Origin: Deltaproteobacteria bacterium | GTDB taxonomy: Bacteria > Desulfobacterota > Binatia > DP-6 | DNA length: 53,350 nt | Assembly (NCBI GenBank): GCA_005888095.1 | Contig: VBKF01000117.1 | Coordinates: 1-53,350 of the forward strand | Direction: 5' to 3' | Part shown: piece after piece, positions 7,273 through 35,913 of the stretch | Layout of the letters: every line of letters begins with the position of its first letter | Position numbering within the stretch: position 1 is the first letter of the stretch | Program-made: the position numbers and the translations under genes | The notes under the pieces: generated by a model | What the model was told of the DNA's origin: nothing | The model's database searches: none | What the model saw: the letters and a program-made list of their open reading frames with translations, nothing else

Positions 7273-8340
7273 ATGCGGCGGCGGGCGCAGCTCCGCGGCC
7301 CCATCTTCGGAAGGGTGGCACGCGGGGCGGGTCTCGGGGCCGGGGGCATGTGGGCCTACGGGATCGCCCTTCTCCTCACGCTCGTCGCGACGGGCTTCAC
7401 CGCCGTCTGCCACGAGCTCGGCCTGGGCGACGTCGAGTTCGCCTGGTTCTTCGTCTCGATCGCGCTCGCGTCCTGCTACGGAACCGCACCGGGCGTGTTC
7501 GCCGGCGTCCTGGCCGGTTTCCTGACCAACTTCGTCTTCATCCCGCCCCTCTACGACCTCCAGATCGAGATGGACGACGTCCTGCGCACCCTCGTGTACG
7601 TGACGGTCTCGCTCGTGATCGGGAAGCTCGTGCGCGCCCGCCAGCGGGCCGAGGCGGAGGCGAAGGACCGCGAGGGACTCCTCAGCTACGTCGCGCACGA
7701 GCTGAGGACGCCGCTCGGCGCGATCAGCAGCTGGGCCGAGCTCATCCGGCGCGGCACGATCCCGGCCGAACGGCTCCCGCACGCCGCGGAGGTGATCCTC
7801 CGCAACGGGAAGCTCCTGGGGCGCATCACCCAGGACTTGGTCGACCTGTCACGGATGGCGCTCGGGACCCTCTCGCTGCGACGCGAGCCTCTCGACCCCG
7901 CCCAGGTCGTGAGCGACTGCGTGGCCGGCGTGCGCGAGACCGCGCTCCAGAAGGGCGTCGTGATCGAGGAGGCCGTCCGGCCCGTCGGGGAGATGCTGGC
8001 GGATCGCGAGCGGCTCTCCCAGGTGGTCGGCAACGTCCTGAACAACGCGATCCGGTTCACACCGGCCGGCGGCGAGGTGCACGTCCAGCTGCGGGGAGAC
8101 GGCCGGCGGGCCGTGCTGACCGTCACCGACACGGGCGGAGGCATCCCGCCGCAGCTGCTCCCCCGCGTCTTCGAGCCGGGGATGCGGCACGCCGGAAGCG
8201 AGGGATTCGGCCTCGGCCTCACGATCGCCAGGGACATCGTCGAGCATCACGGCGGGACGATCTCCGCTCACAGCGACGGAGAAGGCCTCGGCGCGTCCTT
8301 CACGATCGTGCTTCCGGTCAGCGCGGCAGCGCGAGGGTGA
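7273..8340 (+). CDS. Sensor histidine kinase with DUF4118-like membrane domain
   Basis: This 355-residue kinase has three or four transmembrane helices (about 27-118) resembling the KdpD-type DUF4118 membrane region (ASCYGTAPGVFAGVLAGFLTN). HisKA follows with H142 (YVAHELRTPLG), then the N-box NVLNNAIRF, G1 DTGGGI and G2 GFGLGLTIA. ATG 7273 has GAGGG upstream. ATG 7348 is an alternative start just before the first helix. The 3' end overlaps the convergent dehydratase gene by 23 nt. DUF4118 kinases sense membrane or ion state in some bacteria, but the signal here is unknown. Confidence 0.85.
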   Translation: MRRRAQLRGPIFGRVARGAGLGAGGMWAYGIALLLTLVATGFTAVCHELGLGDVEFAWFFVSIALASCYGTAPGVFAGVLAGFLTNFVFIPPLYDLQIEMDDVLRTLVYVTVSLVIGKLVRARQRAEAEAKDREGLLSYVAHELRTPLGAISSWAELIRRGTIPAERLPHAAEVILRNGKLLGRITQDLVDLSRMALGTLSLRREPLDPAQVVSDCVAGVRETALQKGVVIEEAVRPVGEMLADRERLSQVVGNVLNNAIRFTPAGGEVHVQLRGDGRRAVLTVTDTGGGIPPQLLPRVFEPGMRHAGSEGFGLGLTIARDIVEHHGGTISAHSDGEGLGASFTIVLPVSAAARG

Positions 8341-26613: not shown

Positions 26614-27540
26614 TTACCCGGCCGCGGCGGTGAGGCGGCGGGGCAGCTCACAGATGAAGAGCGCACCGCCGTCGGGGGCGTTCTCGGCCCAGATCCGCCC
26701 GGCGTGTCCCTCGACGATCTCGCGACAGATGGCGAGGCCGAGTCCCGTCCCGCCGGCGGCGGACTTCGTCTTGCTCGACTGCACGAACTTGTCGAAGACG
26801 AGCTCGAGCTCCTCCGCGGGGATACCCGGGCCATGATCGCGCACCGTGAGCCTCACCAGGCGCTCCCCGGGTCGCAGGGTCACCGTGATCCGCCCGTTCC
26901 CCTCCGGGGAGAACTTGACGGCGTTGCTGAGCAGGTTGCGGAGGAGCTGGCGGATCTTGCCCCGGTCAACCGCCGCCAGGACGCCTTCCTCGGCGCCGGC
27001 GTACTCGATGACGAGGTGTTTCTCGCTGGCCAGCGAGCGAAACTCGTCCACCGCGTCGAGCACCTCGTGGCAGAGGTCGGCTTCCACGAGGTCGAAGGTC
27101 ATCTTCCCGGCCTCGAGCTTCGCGAGGTCGAGCAGGTCGTTGAGGAGCTGGAGGAGCGTGCTCCCGCTGTCCTCGATGTTCTCGAAGTAGTCCTCCAGCT
27201 CGTCGCGACCGACCGTGGCGCTGCCGCGCACGCCGAAGCGGGCGAAGCTCAGGATGCCGTGCAGCGGCGTGCGAAGCTCGTGCGACATGTTGGCGAGGAA
27301 TTCACTCTTGGCGCGGTTGGCGGCCTCGGCCGCCTCCTTCGCCCCCGCGAGGTCCCGCAGGACCGCCTCGAGCTGCGCGGTGCGCTCCCGGACGGTGGTC
27401 TCGAGCCGCTCGTTGTGCCGGCGGATGACCTCCTGGGCCGTGTAGAGCTCGGCGCTCTTCTCCTCGAGGAGACGCTCCGCTTCCTTGCGAGCTCGCCGTT
27501 CGCGCTCGGCGCGCCGGGAAAGGGCCTCTACGTCGGGCAC
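26614..27540 (-). CDS. Soluble coiled-coil histidine kinase, partner of H-NOX
   Basis: This 308-residue kinase has no transmembrane segment. A long charged coiled coil (about 5-75) leads into HisKA with H87 (ANMSHELRTPLHG), the N-box NLLSNAVKF, G1 DHGPGI and G2 AAGGTGLGLAI. The start is GTG 27540, 13 nt inside the end of the H-NOX gene. It has no sensor domain of its own, so H-NOX is the likely sensor in trans, as in NO-responsive H-NOX/HnoK pairs. The output regulator may be the receiver-kinase hybrid encoded first in this operon. Confidence 0.87.
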   Translation of the reverse strand: MPDVEALSRRAERERRARKEAERLLEEKSAELYTAQEVIRRHNERLETTVRERTAQLEAVLRDLAGAKEAAEAANRAKSEFLANMSHELRTPLHGILSFARFGVRGSATVGRDELEDYFENIEDSGSTLLQLLNDLLDLAKLEAGKMTFDLVEADLCHEVLDAVDEFRSLASEKHLVIEYAGAEEGVLAAVDRGKIRQLLRNLLSNAVKFSPEGNGRITVTLRPGERLVRLTVRDHGPGIPAEELELVFDKFVQSSKTKSAAGGTGLGLAICREIVEGHAGRIWAENAPDGGALFICELPRRLTAAAG

Positions 27541-28081
27541 GGCGCCGCGATGGTACGCTCGAGGGAGAAGCGCACGCCGCTTTCGCCGGGCAGGGCCTCC
27601 CGGGCGATCGCGATCCGCTCCCCGAAGTGCTCGGCGCAGCCGAGGATGAGGCCCTCGGCGAGGTCCGCAAACGGGCGCGACGAGCGGTAGACCATGTCGA
27701 GTCGATCGGGCGCCGGTGCCGAGCACTCGAAGCTCGGCAGCTCCGCGTCGGGGTAGAGCTTCTTCACCTCGGTGTGGATGTGCATCTCGATGCCCATGAG
27801 GAAGTCGAACGCCGACCCCACACCCGAGAAGAAGCGGGGATAGAGCTCGACGAACCGCCGGAAGAGATGCCGTCCGAATTCCCGCACCAGAACGGGGATC
27901 GCGAGCCCGGTCGCCCTGCTCAGGGCGGCCACCAGCGCGATCAGCTCGCCATGATCGTAGGTACCGACGGCGGTGTAGCTTCCGCCCGACGGCACCCCGC
28001 TGGCGTCGACGATCGCATCCGCCACGTCGGGGGAGAAGCGTTGCTCCACCATCTCGAGGAATTCCGTAAAGACGATGCCCT

Positions 28082-28085
<4 letters not shown>
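27528..28085 (-). CDS. H-NOX heme gas-sensor protein (HNOB domain)
   Basis: This 185-residue protein begins MKGIVFTEFLEMVE and carries the H-NOX signatures: proximal heme ligand H104 (HIHTEVKKLYPDAELP) and the YxSxR propionate motif Y133/S135/R137 (VYRSSRPF), then GLILGCAEHFGERI. It binds heme and senses nitric oxide, or oxygen in some lineages, in the cytoplasm. Residues for oxygen versus NO selectivity cannot be judged without an alignment. Its ATG overlaps the upstream hybrid kinase stop by 4 nt, and the downstream kinase starts inside its 3' end. Confidence 0.92.
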
Positions 28086-29185
<1,100 letters not shown>

Positions 29186-29290: not shown

Positions 29291-29791
29291 CTAGCGCCCC
29301 AGCCGCCTGAGCTGGCGAGCGGTGAGCGCCCAGCGCAGGGTGGCGCCGGCGGGCGGTACGAGCTTCTCGACCTCGACCGCGACGCACCCGCCCTTCTTGA
29401 GGTCGATCGCGAGCCGATCGGGCGCCCCGGTCAACAGCAGGGAGGCGAGCCGCGACAGTCCCGGCTCGTGCCCGACCAGCATCACCTGCTCGTGGCGCGA
29501 CCACGGCCGGAGCGCCGCCAGCGTCTCGGCGGGCGGCACCCCCGGTGCGAGCGCTGGAAGCTCGCGGGGGGAGGGAGCGCGCTCGAACGCCGCGGCGACG
29601 ATCGCCGCCGTCTCGGCCGCGCGCGGCAGCGGGCTGGTCAGGATGACGCCGCACTCGATGCCGAGGGCCCGTATCCCCCGCGCGGCGACCGCCATCCTCG
29701 CGCGGCCCCGAGGCGTGAGCCGCCGTGCCCGGTCGTCGCCCCCGGGAGGGGCGTCCTCGGCGATTCCGTGGCGGAGGAGATAGACGGTCAT
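29291..29791 (-). CDS. sixA: SixA-type phosphohistidine phosphatase
   Basis: This 166-residue histidine phosphatase has the RHG motif (R7-H8-G9 in YLLRHGIAED), LTPRGRARM, TSPLPRAAETA and the second catalytic His in LVGHEPGLSRLASLL. SixA removes phosphate from phosphohistidine in phosphorelay or PTS proteins. It overlaps the CHAD gene by 4 nt (ATGA) and ends the five-gene phosphate operon. In this setting it could instead act on other phosphorylated substrates. ATG 29791 is at the canonical MTVYLLRHG start. Confidence 0.88.
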   Translation of the reverse strand: MTVYLLRHGIAEDAPPGGDDRARRLTPRGRARMAVAARGIRALGIECGVILTSPLPRAAETAAIVAAAFERAPSPRELPALAPGVPPAETLAALRPWSRHEQVMLVGHEPGLSRLASLLLTGAPDRLAIDLKKGGCVAVEVEKLVPPAGATLRWALTARQLRRLGR

Positions 29792-30759
29792 GTGCCGGTC
29801 GCCCGCACCAGGCGCAGCACGCGCGCGGCGCGCTTGTGCCGCGACAGCTCTTCGAGCACACCGCGCCGGAGCGTGGCACGGTCGAATCGGCGCCACAGGG
29901 CGGGAAATCGCCGCCGGCGCCGGCGGGCGCGACGTCCGAGCACGCGGATGAGCGCTCCCATGGCGAGCAGCGTGGCGGGCGGGAGCGACGCCGTATCCGC
30001 GAGCTCACGCAGCCGCGCGATCTGAGTGACCGCGTCCTGATGCGCGCCGAGCGTGTCCTGCAACCGCTCGAGCAGCCGGAGCATCCGGACGAGCCGCTTT
30101 CCGCCGAGACCGCGCAGCGTCTCGAGGGCGTACCGCAGCCGCTTCACCCGCACCCGAAGGCGATGAAACGCCTCGGGTGATGCGTCGTCGTCGAGCCGCC
30201 TCCCGGCGCGCAGGACGGCGCGGAGATGGGGCGCGGCCAGGTCGCGGGCGATCTGGCCGAGGCCGAGGTCCGGTCGCACGCCGCCGAGGGAGGCGAGGCG
30301 GGTCAGCACCCTGCGGCAGCGGGGCCCCTCGAGCGTGCGAACGAGGCCGTCGTGGGCGAGGGCGCGGCGCTCGCGGAGCACGGTCACGAGCGGCGCGAGC
30401 GCATCCCGCTCGACCGGATCGAGCCGCCGGCCGCGGGACGCGATCGCCATGAGCAGCACGTCCAGGTCGCGCACCGCGCCGATCGCGTCGGCGAGCCACG
30501 CGAGCTCCTGGGACGCGCGGCGCGCCGTGCCGGCGCCAAGGACGGGCTCGAACAGGCGCAGCGCAGCACGCAGGCGCCGGGTGGCCACGCGGAGCTGGTG
30601 CACGGGCTCGGCCTCGCCCGCGCGCGCACCGGCCTCCTCGCGCGCGAAGACCCGCAGCTGGAGCCGCAGCGCGCTCGCGAGCGCCTCCCCCGCCGGGTCG
30701 TTGGGCGAGAGCAGCAGGCCTCGCGGGCGGACCTGCCCCCGAGGGCGGCCTCCCCTCAC
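29788..30759 (-). CDS. CHAD-domain protein (polyphosphate-binding type)
   Basis: This 323-residue protein is almost entirely one CHAD domain: VHQLRVATRRLRAALRLF, AIGAVRDLDVLL, FHRLRVRVKRLRYALE and LGAHQDAVTQ. The conserved His and many Arg/Lys residues line a basic helical groove, and CHAD domains bind inorganic polyphosphate. Here no CYTH phosphatase is fused. It is wedged between the second thymidylate-kinase-like gene and sixA with 4-nt overlaps on both sides. This context ties it to phosphate chemistry. Confidence 0.88.
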   Translation of the reverse strand: MRGGRPRGQVRPRGLLLSPNDPAGEALASALRLQLRVFAREEAGARAGEAEPVHQLRVATRRLRAALRLFEPVLGAGTARRASQELAWLADAIGAVRDLDVLLMAIASRGRRLDPVERDALAPLVTVLRERRALAHDGLVRTLEGPRCRRVLTRLASLGGVRPDLGLGQIARDLAAPHLRAVLRAGRRLDDDASPEAFHRLRVRVKRLRYALETLRGLGGKRLVRMLRLLERLQDTLGAHQDAVTQIARLRELADTASLPPATLLAMGALIRVLGRRARRRRRRFPALWRRFDRATLRRGVLEELSRHKRAARVLRLVRATGT

Positions 30760-31511
30760 CGTCCGCGGCTCGCGCCCGCGTCGGCCGGCGGCGCCACGGC
30801 GAGCTGCCCGGCGCTGGCGAGGTAGCGGGCGATGTGGGCGCGGAGGTCGTCCTGGATCTCCTCCACCGAGCGCCGTGCGTCGACCCGGACGAAGCGGAAC
30901 TCGTCCGCGAGGCGATCGTACTCCTCGAGGAGGCGCCGCTGGTAGCGGTCGAACGACTCGAAGATGTCGGTGCCGAGCGCGAGATGCATGCCGGACTCCC
31001 AGTAGTTCATTCCCTTGCCCGCCAGCACCCGCGGCACCAGGTGCTCCAGGTCGATCTCGAGGTAGAGGACGAGGTCGGGCACCAGCGCCACGCCGAAGAG
31101 CTGGCGCGTCCAGCCGGGGTTCGCGCCCATCACGGCGTTGCGCGCGAACGCCGTGTACATGTAGCGGTCAGCGATCACGACGAAGCCCGCCTTGAGCGAC
31201 GGGATGATCTGATGCTCGAGCCGGTCTGCGAAGTCCGCGGCGTAGAGCAGGCTGAAGGTGGTGACCGTGAGGTAGTGCCCCGCCTTCGCCTCGTTGATCG
31301 TCTCCGAGAGGAGCGGCGAGCGGGTCCAGCCGGTGTTGCTCACCGCGTAGCCCTCGACCTCGAGCCACGAGCGCAGCATCTCGATCTGGGTCGACCGCCC
31401 CACGCCGTCGGTCCCCTCGATCACGATCAGGTGGCCGGGCAGCGGGCCGAGCTTCAGGTATGGGAGTCCGTGCCCGTACCACCGTTTCCTGCGCCTAGCG
31501 CCGGGAGCCAT
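30756..31511 (-). CDS. Thymidylate-kinase-like protein with P-loop Lys to Arg change
   Basis: This 251-residue protein has a dTMP-kinase fold: P-loop GTDGVGRST (R39 replaces the Walker A Lys), the DRY motif IADRYMYTAF, and a lid/C-terminal region. The usual length is about 210. I chose ATG 31511 for its GGAAGG ribosome site; ATG 31541 is also in frame. Loss of the Lys usually cripples ATP binding, so it may be a regulatory partner of the intact paralogue just upstream, or use a different phosphate donor. The neighbour overlaps are 4 nt (CHAD) and 17 nt (paralogue). Confidence 0.8.
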   Translation of the reverse strand: MAPGARRRKRWYGHGLPYLKLGPLPGHLIVIEGTDGVGRSTQIEMLRSWLEVEGYAVSNTGWTRSPLLSETINEAKAGHYLTVTTFSLLYAADFADRLEHQIIPSLKAGFVVIADRYMYTAFARNAVMGANPGWTRQLFGVALVPDLVLYLEIDLEHLVPRVLAGKGMNYWESGMHLALGTDIFESFDRYQRRLLEEYDRLADEFRFVRVDARRSVEEIQDDLRAHIARYLASAGQLAVAPPADAGASRGR

Positions 31512-32328
31512 TCCGGCCCTTCCGGTCCCGCGGTCCGTCATAGTCGCGGAGCATGGCCTGGACCACGCGGCGTACGGCCTTCTGCAGCGTCTTGATCTCG
31601 GCGGTGGCGTCCATGACCTCGAGCCCGAACTCCCCCGTCAGGCGATCGTAGGTGTCCAGCACCCGGCTCTGGAAGAGCCGGAAGCTCTCCACCGGATTCG
31701 CCGCCAACCCGAGGTCCATGCCGGCCTCGTGGTACTTGAGCTTCGAACGACCGGCGAGCAGGCGCTCGAGCGACACCTCGATCGGCACGCGGAAGTACAA
31801 CGTCAGGTCGGGCCGCGGGGCGAAGCTGTAGACCGCGCGGACCCATTCGGGGTGGACACCCCGCGCCACGTCACGGCCGAAGGCCGTGAAGGCGTAGCGG
31901 TCCGCCAGCACGATCATCCCGGCCTTGAGCGGCGGCATGATCTGGTAGGTCAGACGATCGGCGAAGTCGACCGCGTGCAGCAGGCTGAAGGTCGTCGGCG
32001 TGAGCAGGTCCTTCTTCTTCCCGCGCTTCATCGAGCGCCGGACCAGCCGCGAGGAGTTCCACTCCGTGAAGTGCACCCGGTAGCCGCGCGCCGCGAGCCA
32101 GCGCTGGAGGAGGAGGAGCTGGGTGGACTTGCCCGATCCGTCGACGCCTTCGACCGCGATCAGCCGCCCCGGATACGGGTGCGGGAGGTTGAGCAGGCTG
32201 TCGCTCAAGCGGCTCAGGCGCGAATCGCCGCGCGCGGCATCTCCGGCGTGGTCCGCTGCCGGAGCCGCAGGAGGACCGGCCGGTCGAGAAGCCGGGCGAG
32301 AAGATCCACCCGTCGCTGTGCTGCCCAT
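31495..32328 (-). CDS. Thymidylate-kinase-like protein, intact P-loop
   Basis: This dTMP-kinase-fold protein of up to 277 residues has the P-loop GVDGSGKST (K67 counted from ATG 32328), FTEWNSSRLVRRS in the substrate loop and the DRY motif LADRYAFTAF. ATG 32328 gives a 115-nt overlap with ppx and about 45 low-complexity residues; a start at about 32208-32217 near the ppx stop is equally plausible. The adjacent paralogue shares the same order of motifs. The housekeeping Tmk would not be expected as a tandem pair, so a specialised role is likely. Confidence 0.8.
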   Translation of the reverse strand: MGSTATGGSSRPASRPAGPPAAPAADHAGDAARGDSRLSRLSDSLLNLPHPYPGRLIAVEGVDGSGKSTQLLLLQRWLAARGYRVHFTEWNSSRLVRRSMKRGKKKDLLTPTTFSLLHAVDFADRLTYQIMPPLKAGMIVLADRYAFTAFGRDVARGVHPEWVRAVYSFAPRPDLTLYFRVPIEVSLERLLAGRSKLKYHEAGMDLGLAANPVESFRLFQSRVLDTYDRLTGEFGLEVMDATAEIKTLQKAVRRVVQAMLRDYDGPRDRKGRNGSRR

Positions 32329-33785
32329 AGCTCGAGTTCCGCGTTGTCTTTGCCGGAGTCCACCTCGATGAGCAGGCGGCCTCCCCGATGCGAGGTGCGT
32401 ATGCTTCTAACCACACTGAACTGGGTCCGGTCCAGTGCGTCGGAAACCCGAAGCAAGGCGGCCAGCGCACGCACCCGCCGCCGCATCGGAGGGGGCAGCA
32501 CCTGGACGTCCGGGTCTGACGGGCTCGGAAGTTGCTTTCGATGGCCCCTCGCCACCAGGGCGAGCATCTCGATGTCGAGCGGCTCGAAGCCGAGCAGCTC
32601 GCCCGTCCGGATGAGGTACGCGGAGTGGCGATGGTGGCGGCCGTGGTCGATCGCATGGCCGATGTCGTGCAGGAGCGCGGCGTACTCGAGCGGCTCGCGG
32701 GCCGAAGGCGGCAGCCGGAGCTCGTCGGCGGTGGCATCGAAGAGGGCGAGGGCGAGCCGGGCCACCTGGCGGCCATGCGCGTTCGGGCCTGCGAAGCGTT
32801 CCGCCAGCGCCTCGACGGAGCGACGGCGCACGCTGGCGGCGTCGCCGGGACCGGAGCGCAATCCAGCGAGCTCGAGCAGCAGTCCTTCGCGCAACGCCCA
32901 CGTGCAGGCCATCAGCTCGGGGATGCGGGCCTGCCCCAGCAGCAGGTCGAGCAGCACGACCGCGGCCGGCATGAGATCCACCCGCTTGGTGTCGATCCCG
33001 GGGAGCGACGCTCGCCGCGCCGCGCCCGCGCCAAGGATGCGCTGCCTCAGGCGCGCGATCTCCGCCGCCCTGGCGCGCGCCCCGTGCAGGCGCGCCACGT
33101 CCTCGCCGCGCGCCGCACAGGCCATCGCGACCAGCCCGTTGACCGTCCCGGAAGTCCCGATGGCACGCAGGGTTCCCGCCCGGCGCACCCGCGCCAGCAC
33201 CTCGCCGAGCTCCCGGCGGAGATGCTTCTCGAGCTGACGGACCTGCCCGGTCCGGGGCGGATCGTCGATGAGGAAGCGTTCGGTCAGCCGCGCCACGCCG
33301 AGCGGCAGGCTCCGCATCCAGAGTGCCCGCCCGTCGCGGACGAGCACGAGCTCGACGCTTCCGCCCCCCACGTCGACCAGCAGGTGGGGGCCGCCGTCGA
33401 GACCGAGGGCGTGGCGGGCGGCGCGGAAGATGAGACGCGCCTCGTCCGGACCCGAGATGATCCGAACCGGGATGCCCGTCTCCCGCCGGAGCAAGCGGAC
33501 GAAGGCGGCGCCGTTCCGCGCTTCGCGTACCGCGCTTGTCGCCACCGCGCCGAGGCGCTCGACGTGCCGCGCGCGCGCCAGACGCTCGAAGGTCTTGAGC
33601 GTGCGCAGGGCCAGCTCCGCCGCCTCGCGATCGAGCTTGCCGCTCGTGAAGGCACGGCGGCCGAGGCGTACCATCTCCTTCAGGCGATCGACCACCTGGA
33701 TCCGCCCATCCGGGCTGACGTCGGCCACGAGCATGTGCAGGGAGTTGGAGCCGACGTCGATCGCGGCCAGCCGCACCGCGGGCAT
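32214..33785 (-). CDS. Ppx/GppA phosphatase with C-terminal HD domain
   Basis: This 523-residue protein opens with the ASKHA phosphate-binding motif AAIDVGSNSLHMLV, followed by VDVGGGSVELVLV and GTSGTVNGLVAMA of exopolyphosphatase/guanosine pentaphosphate phosphatase. The C-terminal third is an HD domain (ALLHDIGHAIDHGRHHRHS), as in E. coli Ppx. It hydrolyses polyphosphate or pppGpp. ATG 33785 has AGGGGGG upstream. It is the first gene of a five-gene operon with two thymidylate-kinase-like proteins, CHAD and SixA. Confidence 0.9.
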   Translation of the reverse strand: MPAVRLAAIDVGSNSLHMLVADVSPDGRIQVVDRLKEMVRLGRRAFTSGKLDREAAELALRTLKTFERLARARHVERLGAVATSAVREARNGAAFVRLLRRETGIPVRIISGPDEARLIFRAARHALGLDGGPHLLVDVGGGSVELVLVRDGRALWMRSLPLGVARLTERFLIDDPPRTGQVRQLEKHLRRELGEVLARVRRAGTLRAIGTSGTVNGLVAMACAARGEDVARLHGARARAAEIARLRQRILGAGAARRASLPGIDTKRVDLMPAAVVLLDLLLGQARIPELMACTWALREGLLLELAGLRSGPGDAASVRRRSVEALAERFAGPNAHGRQVARLALALFDATADELRLPPSAREPLEYAALLHDIGHAIDHGRHHRHSAYLIRTGELLGFEPLDIEMLALVARGHRKQLPSPSDPDVQVLPPPMRRRVRALAALLRVSDALDRTQFSVVRSIRTSHRGGRLLIEVDSGKDNAELELWAAQRRVDLLARLLDRPVLLRLRQRTTPEMPRAAIRA

Positions 33786-34167
33786 GATACCCCCCTGCCG
33801 GTGCGAAGTCATGTGAAACGATCTTCTCGGTACCGTAACCGGGCCTTCACAATTTCCGCGGTCATGGATGAGTACGCTGGCTGTCATCGAAACGTCGGGC
33901 TCGTTGGGCAAGAGATCCGGCTACGTCCCACCGCTCTCATCAACTGAGCTCGTCATGCGTTGAATTTCCGTGTCCTCCGCCGCCGATCGGGACGCTCGGA
34001 GCTCTTCAGTTTCGCTCAGCGCATGAGTAACCCGCGTGCACGGTCACGTCCTTCGGTGAAACCGCAGGCGTAATTGCGTCTCTTTGTCCGGGGCGATAGG
34101 GGAGCGTCCACAATTTCGTGGACAACCGCTTCGGCGCGGCACTAGGTTCGCCCGCCTGGAGGAACCC
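33786..34167. other. Gene-free spacer with one operator-like inverted repeat
   Basis: This is a 382-nt divergent spacer between the Ppx gene and an exported-protein gene. It is visibly less GC-rich than its flanks. It contains GTCCAC-N6-GTGGAC, a perfect palindrome at 34106-34123, about 45 nt before the exported-protein start. The sequence CACAATTTC occurs at the palindrome and again near 33849. I see no convincing reading frame, tRNA or terminator. Confidence 0.5.
34106..34123. repeat. Perfect 6-bp inverted repeat, 6-nt spacer
   Basis: GTCCAC aatttc GTGGAC lies 44 nt upstream of the ATG at 34168. The spacing and palindrome suit a transcription-factor operator or a short mRNA hairpin. No poly-T follows, so it is not a terminator. 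A match to any known regulator motif was not established. Confidence 0.4.
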
Positions 34168-35913
34168 ATGCAGAGGAAGACGCTGCTTGCCGTCGGCCTG
34201 CTGCTCATCGCTCCGCGGCTCGCCCTGGCGGCGTACCGCGACAGCAACGAGGCGGTCTCCCCCCAAACGCAGATGAACGGCGGCGGCTGCTATCCCGTCT
34301 CGCGCACCGGGCCGCCGACGGAGATGCTGAACCTGCTCAATCCCGAGTGGGCCGCGATCGACGTGGGGTCGCATCTGCCGCCCGAGTCGGATCCGGTCGC
34401 GCTCCACGGAACGGTCGTTTTCGCGAAGATCAACGAGGGCGGCGACGACCCGGGCAACCACGACAGCGACGACCAGAACACGCTCATCGACGTCGACGCC
34501 GCCGACATGGGCCTCGTCGCGACGGGGAACATCGGGCCGCACGGCGAGGAGGCCGGCTCCCTCGAGTGGGAGCTCGAGATCGGAAAGTACCCCCTCTTCG
34601 CGTGGGCGGGCCACGGCGACCGGATCACCACCGTGGGCCGCTGGATCTGGGACTGCGGCCACCCGGACCCCGACCCGCTCGGCACCTGCTCGTTCACGAT
34701 GAGCCAGCAGTGCATCGTCGACAGCGACTGCGCGCAGCCCGGCTGCCCGACGTGTCTCCCGGGCGAGACCTGCGCCGGCACGGTGTTCAACTACCACAGC
34801 GAGATCCACCCGCCGCAGGCCGTCGCCGTGACCCGCCTCGGCGGGGGCTACTCCTTCAACCGCCGCCGGCGCGCGGGCCGGCGCGCCACCCGCACCGACA
34901 TCTGGATCACGCCCGACGGCGGGGGGGCCGGTGACCGCTGCGTCGTGACGCATCAGCCGAATTCGATCCAGCAGGCCACGATCGAGTGCTTCCCGCTCTC
35001 GCAGCCGCTCGCGAACGTGAACACGAGCAACGTGGCCTTCTACATCCCGCTGCCGCCGCGGCCGGCGAACGGGACCCGCCCGCCGCGCGTCAAGGTGTAC
35101 GACCACACGCCGCTCGGGCTTCCTCAGCCGGCGGTCACGACCACCTTCGTCGACGGGCCGACGCCGCTCGTGCACGCCGTGGTACACATGACGGCACCCG
35201 TCGGCGGCGTCCTGCCGAGCATGGTCGGCAAGACGATCATCGCGGGGTGGCGTGGCGACCGCACCCAGCTGGCGAAGGTGCGCCTGCAGGTGACCGCGAT
35301 CGAGATCGTGAACGCGCTCAAGCCCGTGAACCCCGCGGTGAGCGAGCGCATGCGCTGCTCCGAGACCTCGACCCAGGACTGCAGCGCGACGCCGTGCCCG
35401 CCGGGCGAGACGTGCCGAACCTTCGGCGGCACCATCCCCGGCTGGGAGGTATTCCTCGAGGCGAACGGCAACTGGCAGAAGCTCGCCGGCCTCGAGGGGA
35501 TCGTCGCGCCGGCGACCGTACCACAGAGCCTCGTCTACGACGAGGCGATCCCCCTCACCGGCGGCGTCCTTCGCCTGCACGCGACCGGTCACAGCCTGGA
35601 CTGCCGCGAGTCTGTCTACGGCATGTCGATCCGCCGGGACATCGAGATCTTCGGCCCGACGGACACCCTCGCCTGCCTCGAGAACGCCGAGAGCCACGAC
35701 GTCGGCGACCTCGACCTGACCTTCACCGCCGCGGCGCTCCCGCCCCGTGGGCGGTCCGCTTCCTACGTCACGCAGAGCGTGGGCGGCGAGGGGGGGAGCT
35801 GCTCGACGTCGACGGGGCAGCGCTGCCTGACCGACGCCGACTGCCCGAGCGGCGAGACGTGCATGGTGACCGGCGGCTCGTACCGGCTGCACTACACCAT
35901 CAGGCGCCGCTGA
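34168..35913 (+). CDS. Large exported protein with three Cys motifs of the D-C...G-E-x-C type
   Basis: This 581-residue protein starts with a signal peptide (MQRKTLLAVGLLLIAPRLALA, probable cleavage after about residue 21), with GGAGGAACCC before the ATG. Three short Cys-rich inserts recur near residues 171-205, 394-416 and 544-567. The core patterns are C-x-x-D-x-D-C and G-E-T-C (SDCAQPGCPTCLPGETC, CPPGETC, DADCPSGETC). The rest is a beta-rich, Pro/Asp-rich extracellular-type sequence that I do not recognise. The repeats could be disulfide-bonded loops. It has no lipobox and no C-terminal sorting tail. Confidence 0.75.
   Translation: MQRKTLLAVGLLLIAPRLALAAYRDSNEAVSPQTQMNGGGCYPVSRTGPPTEMLNLLNPEWAAIDVGSHLPPESDPVALHGTVVFAKINEGGDDPGNHDSDDQNTLIDVDAADMGLVATGNIGPHGEEAGSLEWELEIGKYPLFAWAGHGDRITTVGRWIWDCGHPDPDPLGTCSFTMSQQCIVDSDCAQPGCPTCLPGETCAGTVFNYHSEIHPPQAVAVTRLGGGYSFNRRRRAGRRATRTDIWITPDGGGAGDRCVVTHQPNSIQQATIECFPLSQPLANVNTSNVAFYIPLPPRPANGTRPPRVKVYDHTPLGLPQPAVTTTFVDGPTPLVHAVVHMTAPVGGVLPSMVGKTIIAGWRGDRTQLAKVRLQVTAIEIVNALKPVNPAVSERMRCSETSTQDCSATPCPPGETCRTFGGTIPGWEVFLEANGNWQKLAGLEGIVAPATVPQSLVYDEAIPLTGGVLRLHATGHSLDCRESVYGMSIRRDIEIFGPTDTLACLENAESHDVGDLDLTFTAAALPPRGRSASYVTQSVGGEGGSCSTSTGQRCLTDADCPSGETCMVTGGSYRLHYTIRRR

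Follow-up and report, generated by a model that had tools for sequence, protein, structure and literature searches.

Tandem thymidylate-kinase-like genes beside polyphosphate genes: a candidate two-subunit polyphosphate kinase

Why should a bacterium place two adjacent thymidylate-kinase-like (Tmk-like) genes between an exopolyphosphatase-family gene and the gene of a polyphosphate-binding protein? The question is raised by positions 29291-33785 of the window, the whole stretch of 53,350 bases analysed here, which is one contig (VBKF01000117.1) of the 5.46 Mb genome of a Deltaproteobacteria bacterium. Five genes lie there head to tail, all on the minus strand, in the transcription order ppx/gppA, tmkA (encoding TmkA, hereafter A), tmkB (encoding TmkB, hereafter B), a CHAD-domain gene and sixA. 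On balance, and judging from sequence, we lean towards A and B together forming a two-subunit polyphosphate kinase of thymidylate-kinase fold, with A as catalytic subunit and B as a pseudokinase. What is observed, and what this view builds upon, is the gene set itself, an A-B pair that recurs in relatives, a Lys-to-Arg change in B, the loss of thymine-site motifs, and the genomic neighbourhood.

The gene set and its two kinase-like members

The first gene, ppx/gppA (32214..33785), encodes a 523-residue protein of the exopolyphosphatase / pppGpp phosphatase family with a C-terminal domain III; it matches PF02541 (Ppx-GppA, 2.4e-58) and PF21447 (Ppx-GppA_III, 2e-26), and scores 273.8 bits against TIGR03706, below the cut-off of 307. 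The catalytic candidate tmkA follows at 31495..32328. Its start is ambiguous: the ATG at 32328 gives 277 residues and an overlap of 115 nucleotides (nt) with ppx, and an in-frame TTG at 32208, just past the ppx stop, gives 237 residues. The pseudokinase candidate tmkB (30756..31541, 261 residues) overlaps tmkA by 47 nt if it starts at its first ATG. Both products match PF02223 (Thymidylate_kin), TmkA at 5.6e-20 and TmkB at 2.6e-20, and they are 45% identical to each other across 203 residues. Next comes a CHAD-domain protein, a polyphosphate-binding module (29788..30759, GTG start, 323 residues, PF05235 at 1.5e-50); polyphosphate binding by CHAD domains is on record in passages of PMC6537752. 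The run closes with a SixA-like histidine phosphatase of 166 residues (29291..29791), which reaches 79.8 bits against TIGR00249 (cut-off 74.5) and also matches PF00300 (His_Phos_1) at 4.1e-8. By their coordinates, tmkB and the CHAD gene share 4 nt (30756-30759), as do the CHAD gene and sixA (29788-29791).

The two kinase-like proteins part ways at the Walker A motif. TmkA carries an intact loop, GVDGSGKS, with Lys67 (32125..32148, minus strand; extended reading GVDGSGKST), and the TmkB counterpart reads GTDGVGRS, with Arg49 replacing the lysine (31392..31415, minus strand; extended reading GTDGVGRST). The original prediction for this locus, made from the letters of the DNA, had named the five-gene minus-strand run, the 4-nt overlaps and a slight overlap of the kinase-like genes; open reading frames and profile matches agree with the former, and the coordinates bear out the latter two. 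The Lys-to-Arg change is an addition to what had been named there.

Recurrence of the pair and of its neighbours

Relatives were gathered by scanning genomes with a profile of A, which gave 538 relatives, the best 80 of which were retained, a set weighted towards close relatives and Nitrospira; with other fetched loci the collection amounts to 128 loci from bacteria and Thermoplasmatota archaea, most of the sampled genomes being metagenome-assembled genomes (MAGs). Two tandem, same-strand Tmk-like genes are found in 124 of the 128 loci, and of the remaining four, L108 stops at the end of its contig and L163-L165 each have a single Tmk gene; no natural A-B fusion occurs among the 128. Two copies are likewise the rule in wider scans. 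Within the window's own phylum, 10 of 247 genomes match at 1e-20 and eight of these, the present one included, have two copies; 55 of 251 Chloroflexota genomes match, 53 of them with two or more hits, and 35 of 243 Thermoplasmatota genomes match, 21 with two or more.

A first count of the Walker A position (Lys in 125/125 A, Arg in 119/120 B) was circular, since the motif being counted had also served to assign the proteins to A or B. Recounts were therefore made independently of it, by gene order alone and by likeness outside the P-loop. By gene order, the first gene of the pair holds the lysine in 123 of 124 cases, the exception being read at another EG, and the second gene holds arginine in 121 of 124, two being unreadable (L046, L100) and one again read at another EG. 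The second gene of L172 has a broken P-loop, though an arginine occupies the counted position. Likeness outside the P-loop puts A before B in 121 of the 124 pairs; the other three are A-A (L170, L172, L173). The loops of the second genes of L170 and L172 depart further from the pattern (EGPEGAGRRE and EGPDIGPRPR), and these two proteins are nearer A than B outside the P-loop.

B is by these measures a preserved protein that lacks the catalytic lysine, since residues E42, D45, D103, D125 and R126 are kept at 99-100% in the motif-assigned B rows and its conservation comes near that of A (mean identity 51% for B-B, 59% for A-A). The same conservation, together with the recurring arginine, rules out TmkB as a decaying pseudogene. 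The distance matrices of A and B also mirror each other across 120 loci (r 0.91, Mantel p 0.0005), with rows assigned to A or B by the Walker motif, as they are in the tree and in the charge comparison below. In that tree of 95 rows, built by a quick method and with long branches, A forms one group at 97 and B nearly does so, with two changes needed and one long B row standing apart.

The neighbours recur as well. Counts were taken within 10 kb of the pair on a base of 125 loci, from which L163-L165 were left out and to which L177, which has no such neighbour, was put back; all had been selected for likeness to the TmkA of the window. The Ppx N-domain is present in 67 of these loci, Ppx domain III/HD in 69, CHAD in 52, SixA in 56, PhoU in 26, PstS in 11, PPK2 in 5 and PPK1 in 2. 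At least one of Ppx, CHAD and SixA is found in 95 loci, rising to 100 when PhoU, PstS and the PPKs are counted too. Among loci of named phylum, Ppx, CHAD or SixA accompanies the pair in 24/24 in Nitrospirota, 5/5 in Myxococcota, 4/4 in each of Planctomycetota, Omnitrophota and Armatimonadota, and 10/14 in Chloroflexota. The tandem arrangement is thus not due to chance, given that 124 of 128 loci have it and that Ppx, CHAD and SixA recur beside it in several phyla. A second Chloroflexota sample was drawn regardless of neighbours, its linkage being read by hand and the figures being lower bounds: at least 21 of the 55 pair-bearing genomes have CHAD within 10 kb, at least 11 have Ppx, and at least 22 have either. 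Genome-wide, CHAD is present in 41 of 55 Chloroflexota with the pair vs 105 of 196 without it (p 0.005).

Several loci show further arrangements. A Ser/Thr protein kinase gene lies near the pair in L089, L097 (PF00069), L104, L106, L166 and L178, several of which are Ktedonobacteria-like. In loci of Anaerolineae type (L083, at 7297-8058, L084-L086 and L099) a protein of about 210 residues after CHAD matches only the later part of the Ppx profile, and in L083 a PPK2 gene also adjoins this short Ppx-like protein. The Thermoplasmatota loci L153-L160 have a divergent pair with neither Ppx nor CHAD nearby, and some of them adjoin PhoU or Pst-like transporter genes.

Polyphosphate synthesis weighed against other activities

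How might such a pair work? TmkA, whose P-loop is intact and whose acceptor pocket is altered, would transfer the gamma-phosphate from ATP to a polyphosphate chain and probably also work in reverse. TmkB, bearing arginine for the Walker A lysine, would itself be catalytically inactive, serving to complete the dimer and to hold the chain, or to regulate and gate it. CHAD would tether the polymer and Ppx would hydrolyse or trim it, and SixA may strip phosphate from some partner. Polyphosphate kinase activity, its direction, the heterodimer and the role of B are each points that we infer from the neighbourhood and the residues; the same two sources lend support to the earlier proposal of a kinase pair tied to polyphosphate.

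The housekeeping deoxythymidine monophosphate (dTMP) kinase was considered as an identity for the pair and ruled out, on account of a canonical tmk elsewhere and of differing pocket motifs. The canonical gene of the window's genome sits on another contig (C178) and has the canonical motifs. Fifty pair-bearing genomes were hand-picked from the best 80, with Nitrospira thinned, for counts of Tmk, PPK1 and PPK2, and a further Tmk match of at least 118 bits is present in 45 of them; of the other five, one (G293) has a separate match of 101 bits. The original prediction that the paralogues are not simply a housekeeping dTMP kinase therefore held, another Tmk being present in the genome itself as well as in those 45. 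REPG(G), aromatic-xxxR and AYQ are the thymine-site motifs in Tmk structures. In the alignment with canonical Tmk, TmkA has EWNSS, HATDF and ARD in their respective places, and the B rows are likewise without the canonical motifs. Fold models of the two cores (predicted local distance difference test, pLDDT, 94.1 for TmkA and 91.7 for TmkB) come closest to ST1543 of Sulfolobus tokodaii, with Z of 28.8 and 26.1, other Tmk structures following at Z 22-25. PPK2 chains are not among the 50 matches listed for the models, which counts neither way. Against the Pfam profiles, neither TmkA nor TmkB matches PF03976 (PPK2) or PF02503 (PPK1) at E 0.1.

What, then, of the known polyphosphate kinases? The PF02503 profile finds no PPK1 in the window's genome. 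Among the 50 genomes, 16 have PPK1, 30 have PPK2 and 14 have neither. A Ppx or CHAD match lies no more than 10 kb from the pair in 12 of the 14; in one case (L113) it is an incomplete Ppx, preceded by a ROK domain where the contig ends. The pair as a general replacement of PPK1 or PPK2 was ruled out by the 16 and 30 genomes just given. Longilinea arvoryzae and Thermanaerothrix daxensis, both cultured, carry the pair and PPK2 and have no PPK1 match. In three genomes (G480, G402, G248) PPK1 lies some 3-7 kb from the pair, and both can thus occupy one locus.

These counts also bear on the alternative that fares best, a polyphosphate-driven nucleotide kinase. Here A would phosphorylate a nucleoside mono- or diphosphate (NMP or NDP) from polyphosphate, and the operon would spend the polymer, not build it. 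The neighbourhood evidence applies to it equally, the Tmk fold and the nucleotide-site residues are kept, and 36 of the 50 genomes have PPK1 or PPK2 alongside the pair; passages of PMC8776046 moreover describe a class II enzyme of related fold, PPK2C, that phosphorylates AMP and for which synthesis was not detectable. The 14 genomes without a known polyphosphate kinase, however, 12 of which keep Ppx or CHAD near the pair, would under this alternative need another maker of the polymer, gene gaps in MAGs aside. We regard it as unlikely, if a serious contender.

An ATP-dependent NMP kinase, for dTMP or another substrate, that merely sits in a phosphate regulon with B as its regulatory subunit would account for the PF02223 and TIGR00041 matches, for the deposition of the S. 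tokodaii relative as a dTMP kinase, and for models whose nearest structures are those of Tmk. It is nonetheless quite improbable in view of the canonical Tmk in the window's genome and in 45 of the 50 others, the replaced thymine-pocket motifs, and the recurring neighbours, which are phosphate and polyphosphate genes. Highly improbable is a role in signalling and not storage, with the kinase acting on a protein or a small phosphorylated metabolite and SixA dephosphorylating the product: SixA lies near 56 of 125 pairs, and a hybrid histidine kinase and a Haem-NO-binding (HNOB)/HisKA pair follow on the same strand in the window, but SixA is absent near many pairs that have CHAD or Ppx and from all 14 named Chloroflexota loci.

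Several observations weigh against a two-subunit polyphosphate kinase. The window's genome itself has one PPK2 (PF03976). Since 36 of the 50 pair-bearing genomes have PPK1 or PPK2, sometimes near the pair, the pair is no simple replacement of either. The lower frequency of PPK1 among Chloroflexota that have the pair (20/55 vs 113/196 without it; odds ratio 0.42, p 0.006), which speaks for such a kinase, comes from a test that ignores phylogeny and from a setting where large genomes tend to have both. Against TIGR00041, the dTMP-kinase equivalog (cut-off 83.25), TmkA scores 75.9 and falls below, and TmkB scores 88.7 and passes. A is mostly basic (median isoelectric point, pI, 9.0) and B acidic (5.4), with a pI above 7 in 112/125 A and 16/120 B, and at 113 of 120 loci A is the more basic of the two; charge is however not diagnostic, because canonical Tmk (six rows and one fragment) cover the pI range 5.8-12.0. 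Conservation of the neighbourhood, which the original prediction had proposed to check, stood in part: the neighbours are there in many relatives, though in 25 of the 125 loci no polyphosphate or phosphate gene among those sought lies within 10 kb, and these 25 include all four from Verrucomicrobiota. Ppx, CHAD or SixA is found in 0/4 loci of Verrucomicrobiota and 0/2 of Acidobacteriota, and linkage is seen in well under half of the pair-bearing Chloroflexota. ST1543, the nearest solved relative, carries the name dTMP kinase in its deposited structures, one of which has ADP bound, and two 2017 papers, to go by their titles, treat it as such. Finally, Sulfolobus acidocaldarius, in the control set, has no CHAD match.

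Should the two-subunit polyphosphate kinase hold, many proteins annotated as 'dTMP kinase' would be one of the two subunits of a polyphosphate enzyme, and a synthase would exist after all in genomes that encode Ppx and CHAD yet lack PPK1 and PPK2. The conserved Lys-to-Arg subunit would present a clean case for control of such a kinase by a pseudokinase partner. Family names call for caution in any case, as it is the likely inactive subunit, TmkB, that is above the dTMP-kinase cut-off in the window. More tentatively, A-B could be a polyphosphate kinase class in its own right, in which a catalytic subunit derived from Tmk and a pseudokinase with an arginine Walker motif work only as a heteromer, and which acts as the main or only synthase in many PPK1-lacking bacteria, Sulfolobales and Thermoplasmata. 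If true, this would explain polyphosphate formation in some of the bacteria for which the mechanism is reported as unknown.

Around the five genes, the window holds a divergent open reading frame of 609 residues upstream of ppx (34084-35913, plus strand), which has no Pfam match at 0.001; a sigma-70-like promoter match ending on the ppx start codon was not used as evidence. Downstream, a receiver-HisKA-HATPase hybrid kinase gene (28082-29185, minus strand) begins about 105 nt past the sixA stop on the same strand, and it is possibly on one transcript with the phosphohistidine phosphatase gene sixA. It is followed by an HNOB protein gene (27528-28085, minus strand, 2.4e-39) and a HisKA/HATPase histidine kinase gene (26614-27480, minus strand), which together make up an H-NOX-type sensor pair.

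Archaeal relatives and comparison with known systems

The nearest solved chain to TmkA is 2plr (193 bits), a structure of the S. tokodaii 'dTMP kinase' ST1543 (also 4nzy, 4rzx and 5h70), whose identity to the TmkA model is 45% across 205 residues. ST1543 is of A type: it shares the EWNSS and ARD motifs with TmkA, has a corresponding P-loop, GIDGSGKS, and falls inside clade A; it differs in its thermophilic archaeal source and in its deposited function. Its sister row in the tree, L161, has a B partner, with Ppx and SixA nearby. Sulfolobales make and accumulate polyphosphate with no PPK homologue found, as stated in passages of PMC7831078, PMC6864096 and PMC8233210, and S. acidocaldarius in our control set has a Ppx match and no PPK1 (PF02503) or PPK2 (PF03976) match.

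The original prediction knew of no described system with this gene set, a claim that has been overtaken on two sides. The Fig. 2 legend of a 2024 paper (PMC10892726) names SixA, PPX, dTMP kinase and CHAD as a cluster of biomining archaea, matching the four kinds of gene seen here, so that the clustering is known from that legend. The cluster differs from the present loci in being archaeal, and the paper's subject is CHAD and copper; the passages covered give the kinase no part in polyphosphate metabolism. For a distinct enzyme of PPK type in a Sulfolobus species, moreover, a sentence in PMC13318637 cites Hofmann et al. 2026. The title of that work (Hofmann, Kogay, Schmerling et al. 2026, J Biol Chem 302(4):111283) announces a distinct polyphosphate kinase family of Crenarchaeota, which would fill the same gap, Sulfolobus being without PPK1 and PPK2. 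Our literature search found no paper on the A-B enzyme, the 2026 title having come via a reference list alone. The A-B Tmk-like family may be that very crenarchaeal family. As far as the title and the citing sentence allow a comparison, the 2026 family is archaeal, whereas the present loci are mostly bacterial; their bacterial spread and the arginine-Walker partner would be new, unless the 2026 paper already reports them.

With canonical thymidylate kinases, A and B share the fold and the PF02223 profile; they differ by the replaced motifs, the tandem Lys-to-Arg partner and, in most collected loci, the phosphate neighbourhood. PPK2 (PF03976) has, like A and B, a P-loop kinase fold related to thymidylate kinases; passages of PMC4748334 describe it as Tmk-related and place the S. 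tokodaii Tmk among its nearest non-PPK2 structures. The class II enzyme PPK2C of Pseudomonas aeruginosa joins an inactive and an active domain in one protein (passages of PMC8776046). A and B, in contrast, fall outside the PPK2 profile, are encoded by separate, unfused genes, and share their genome with a true PPK2 encoded elsewhere.

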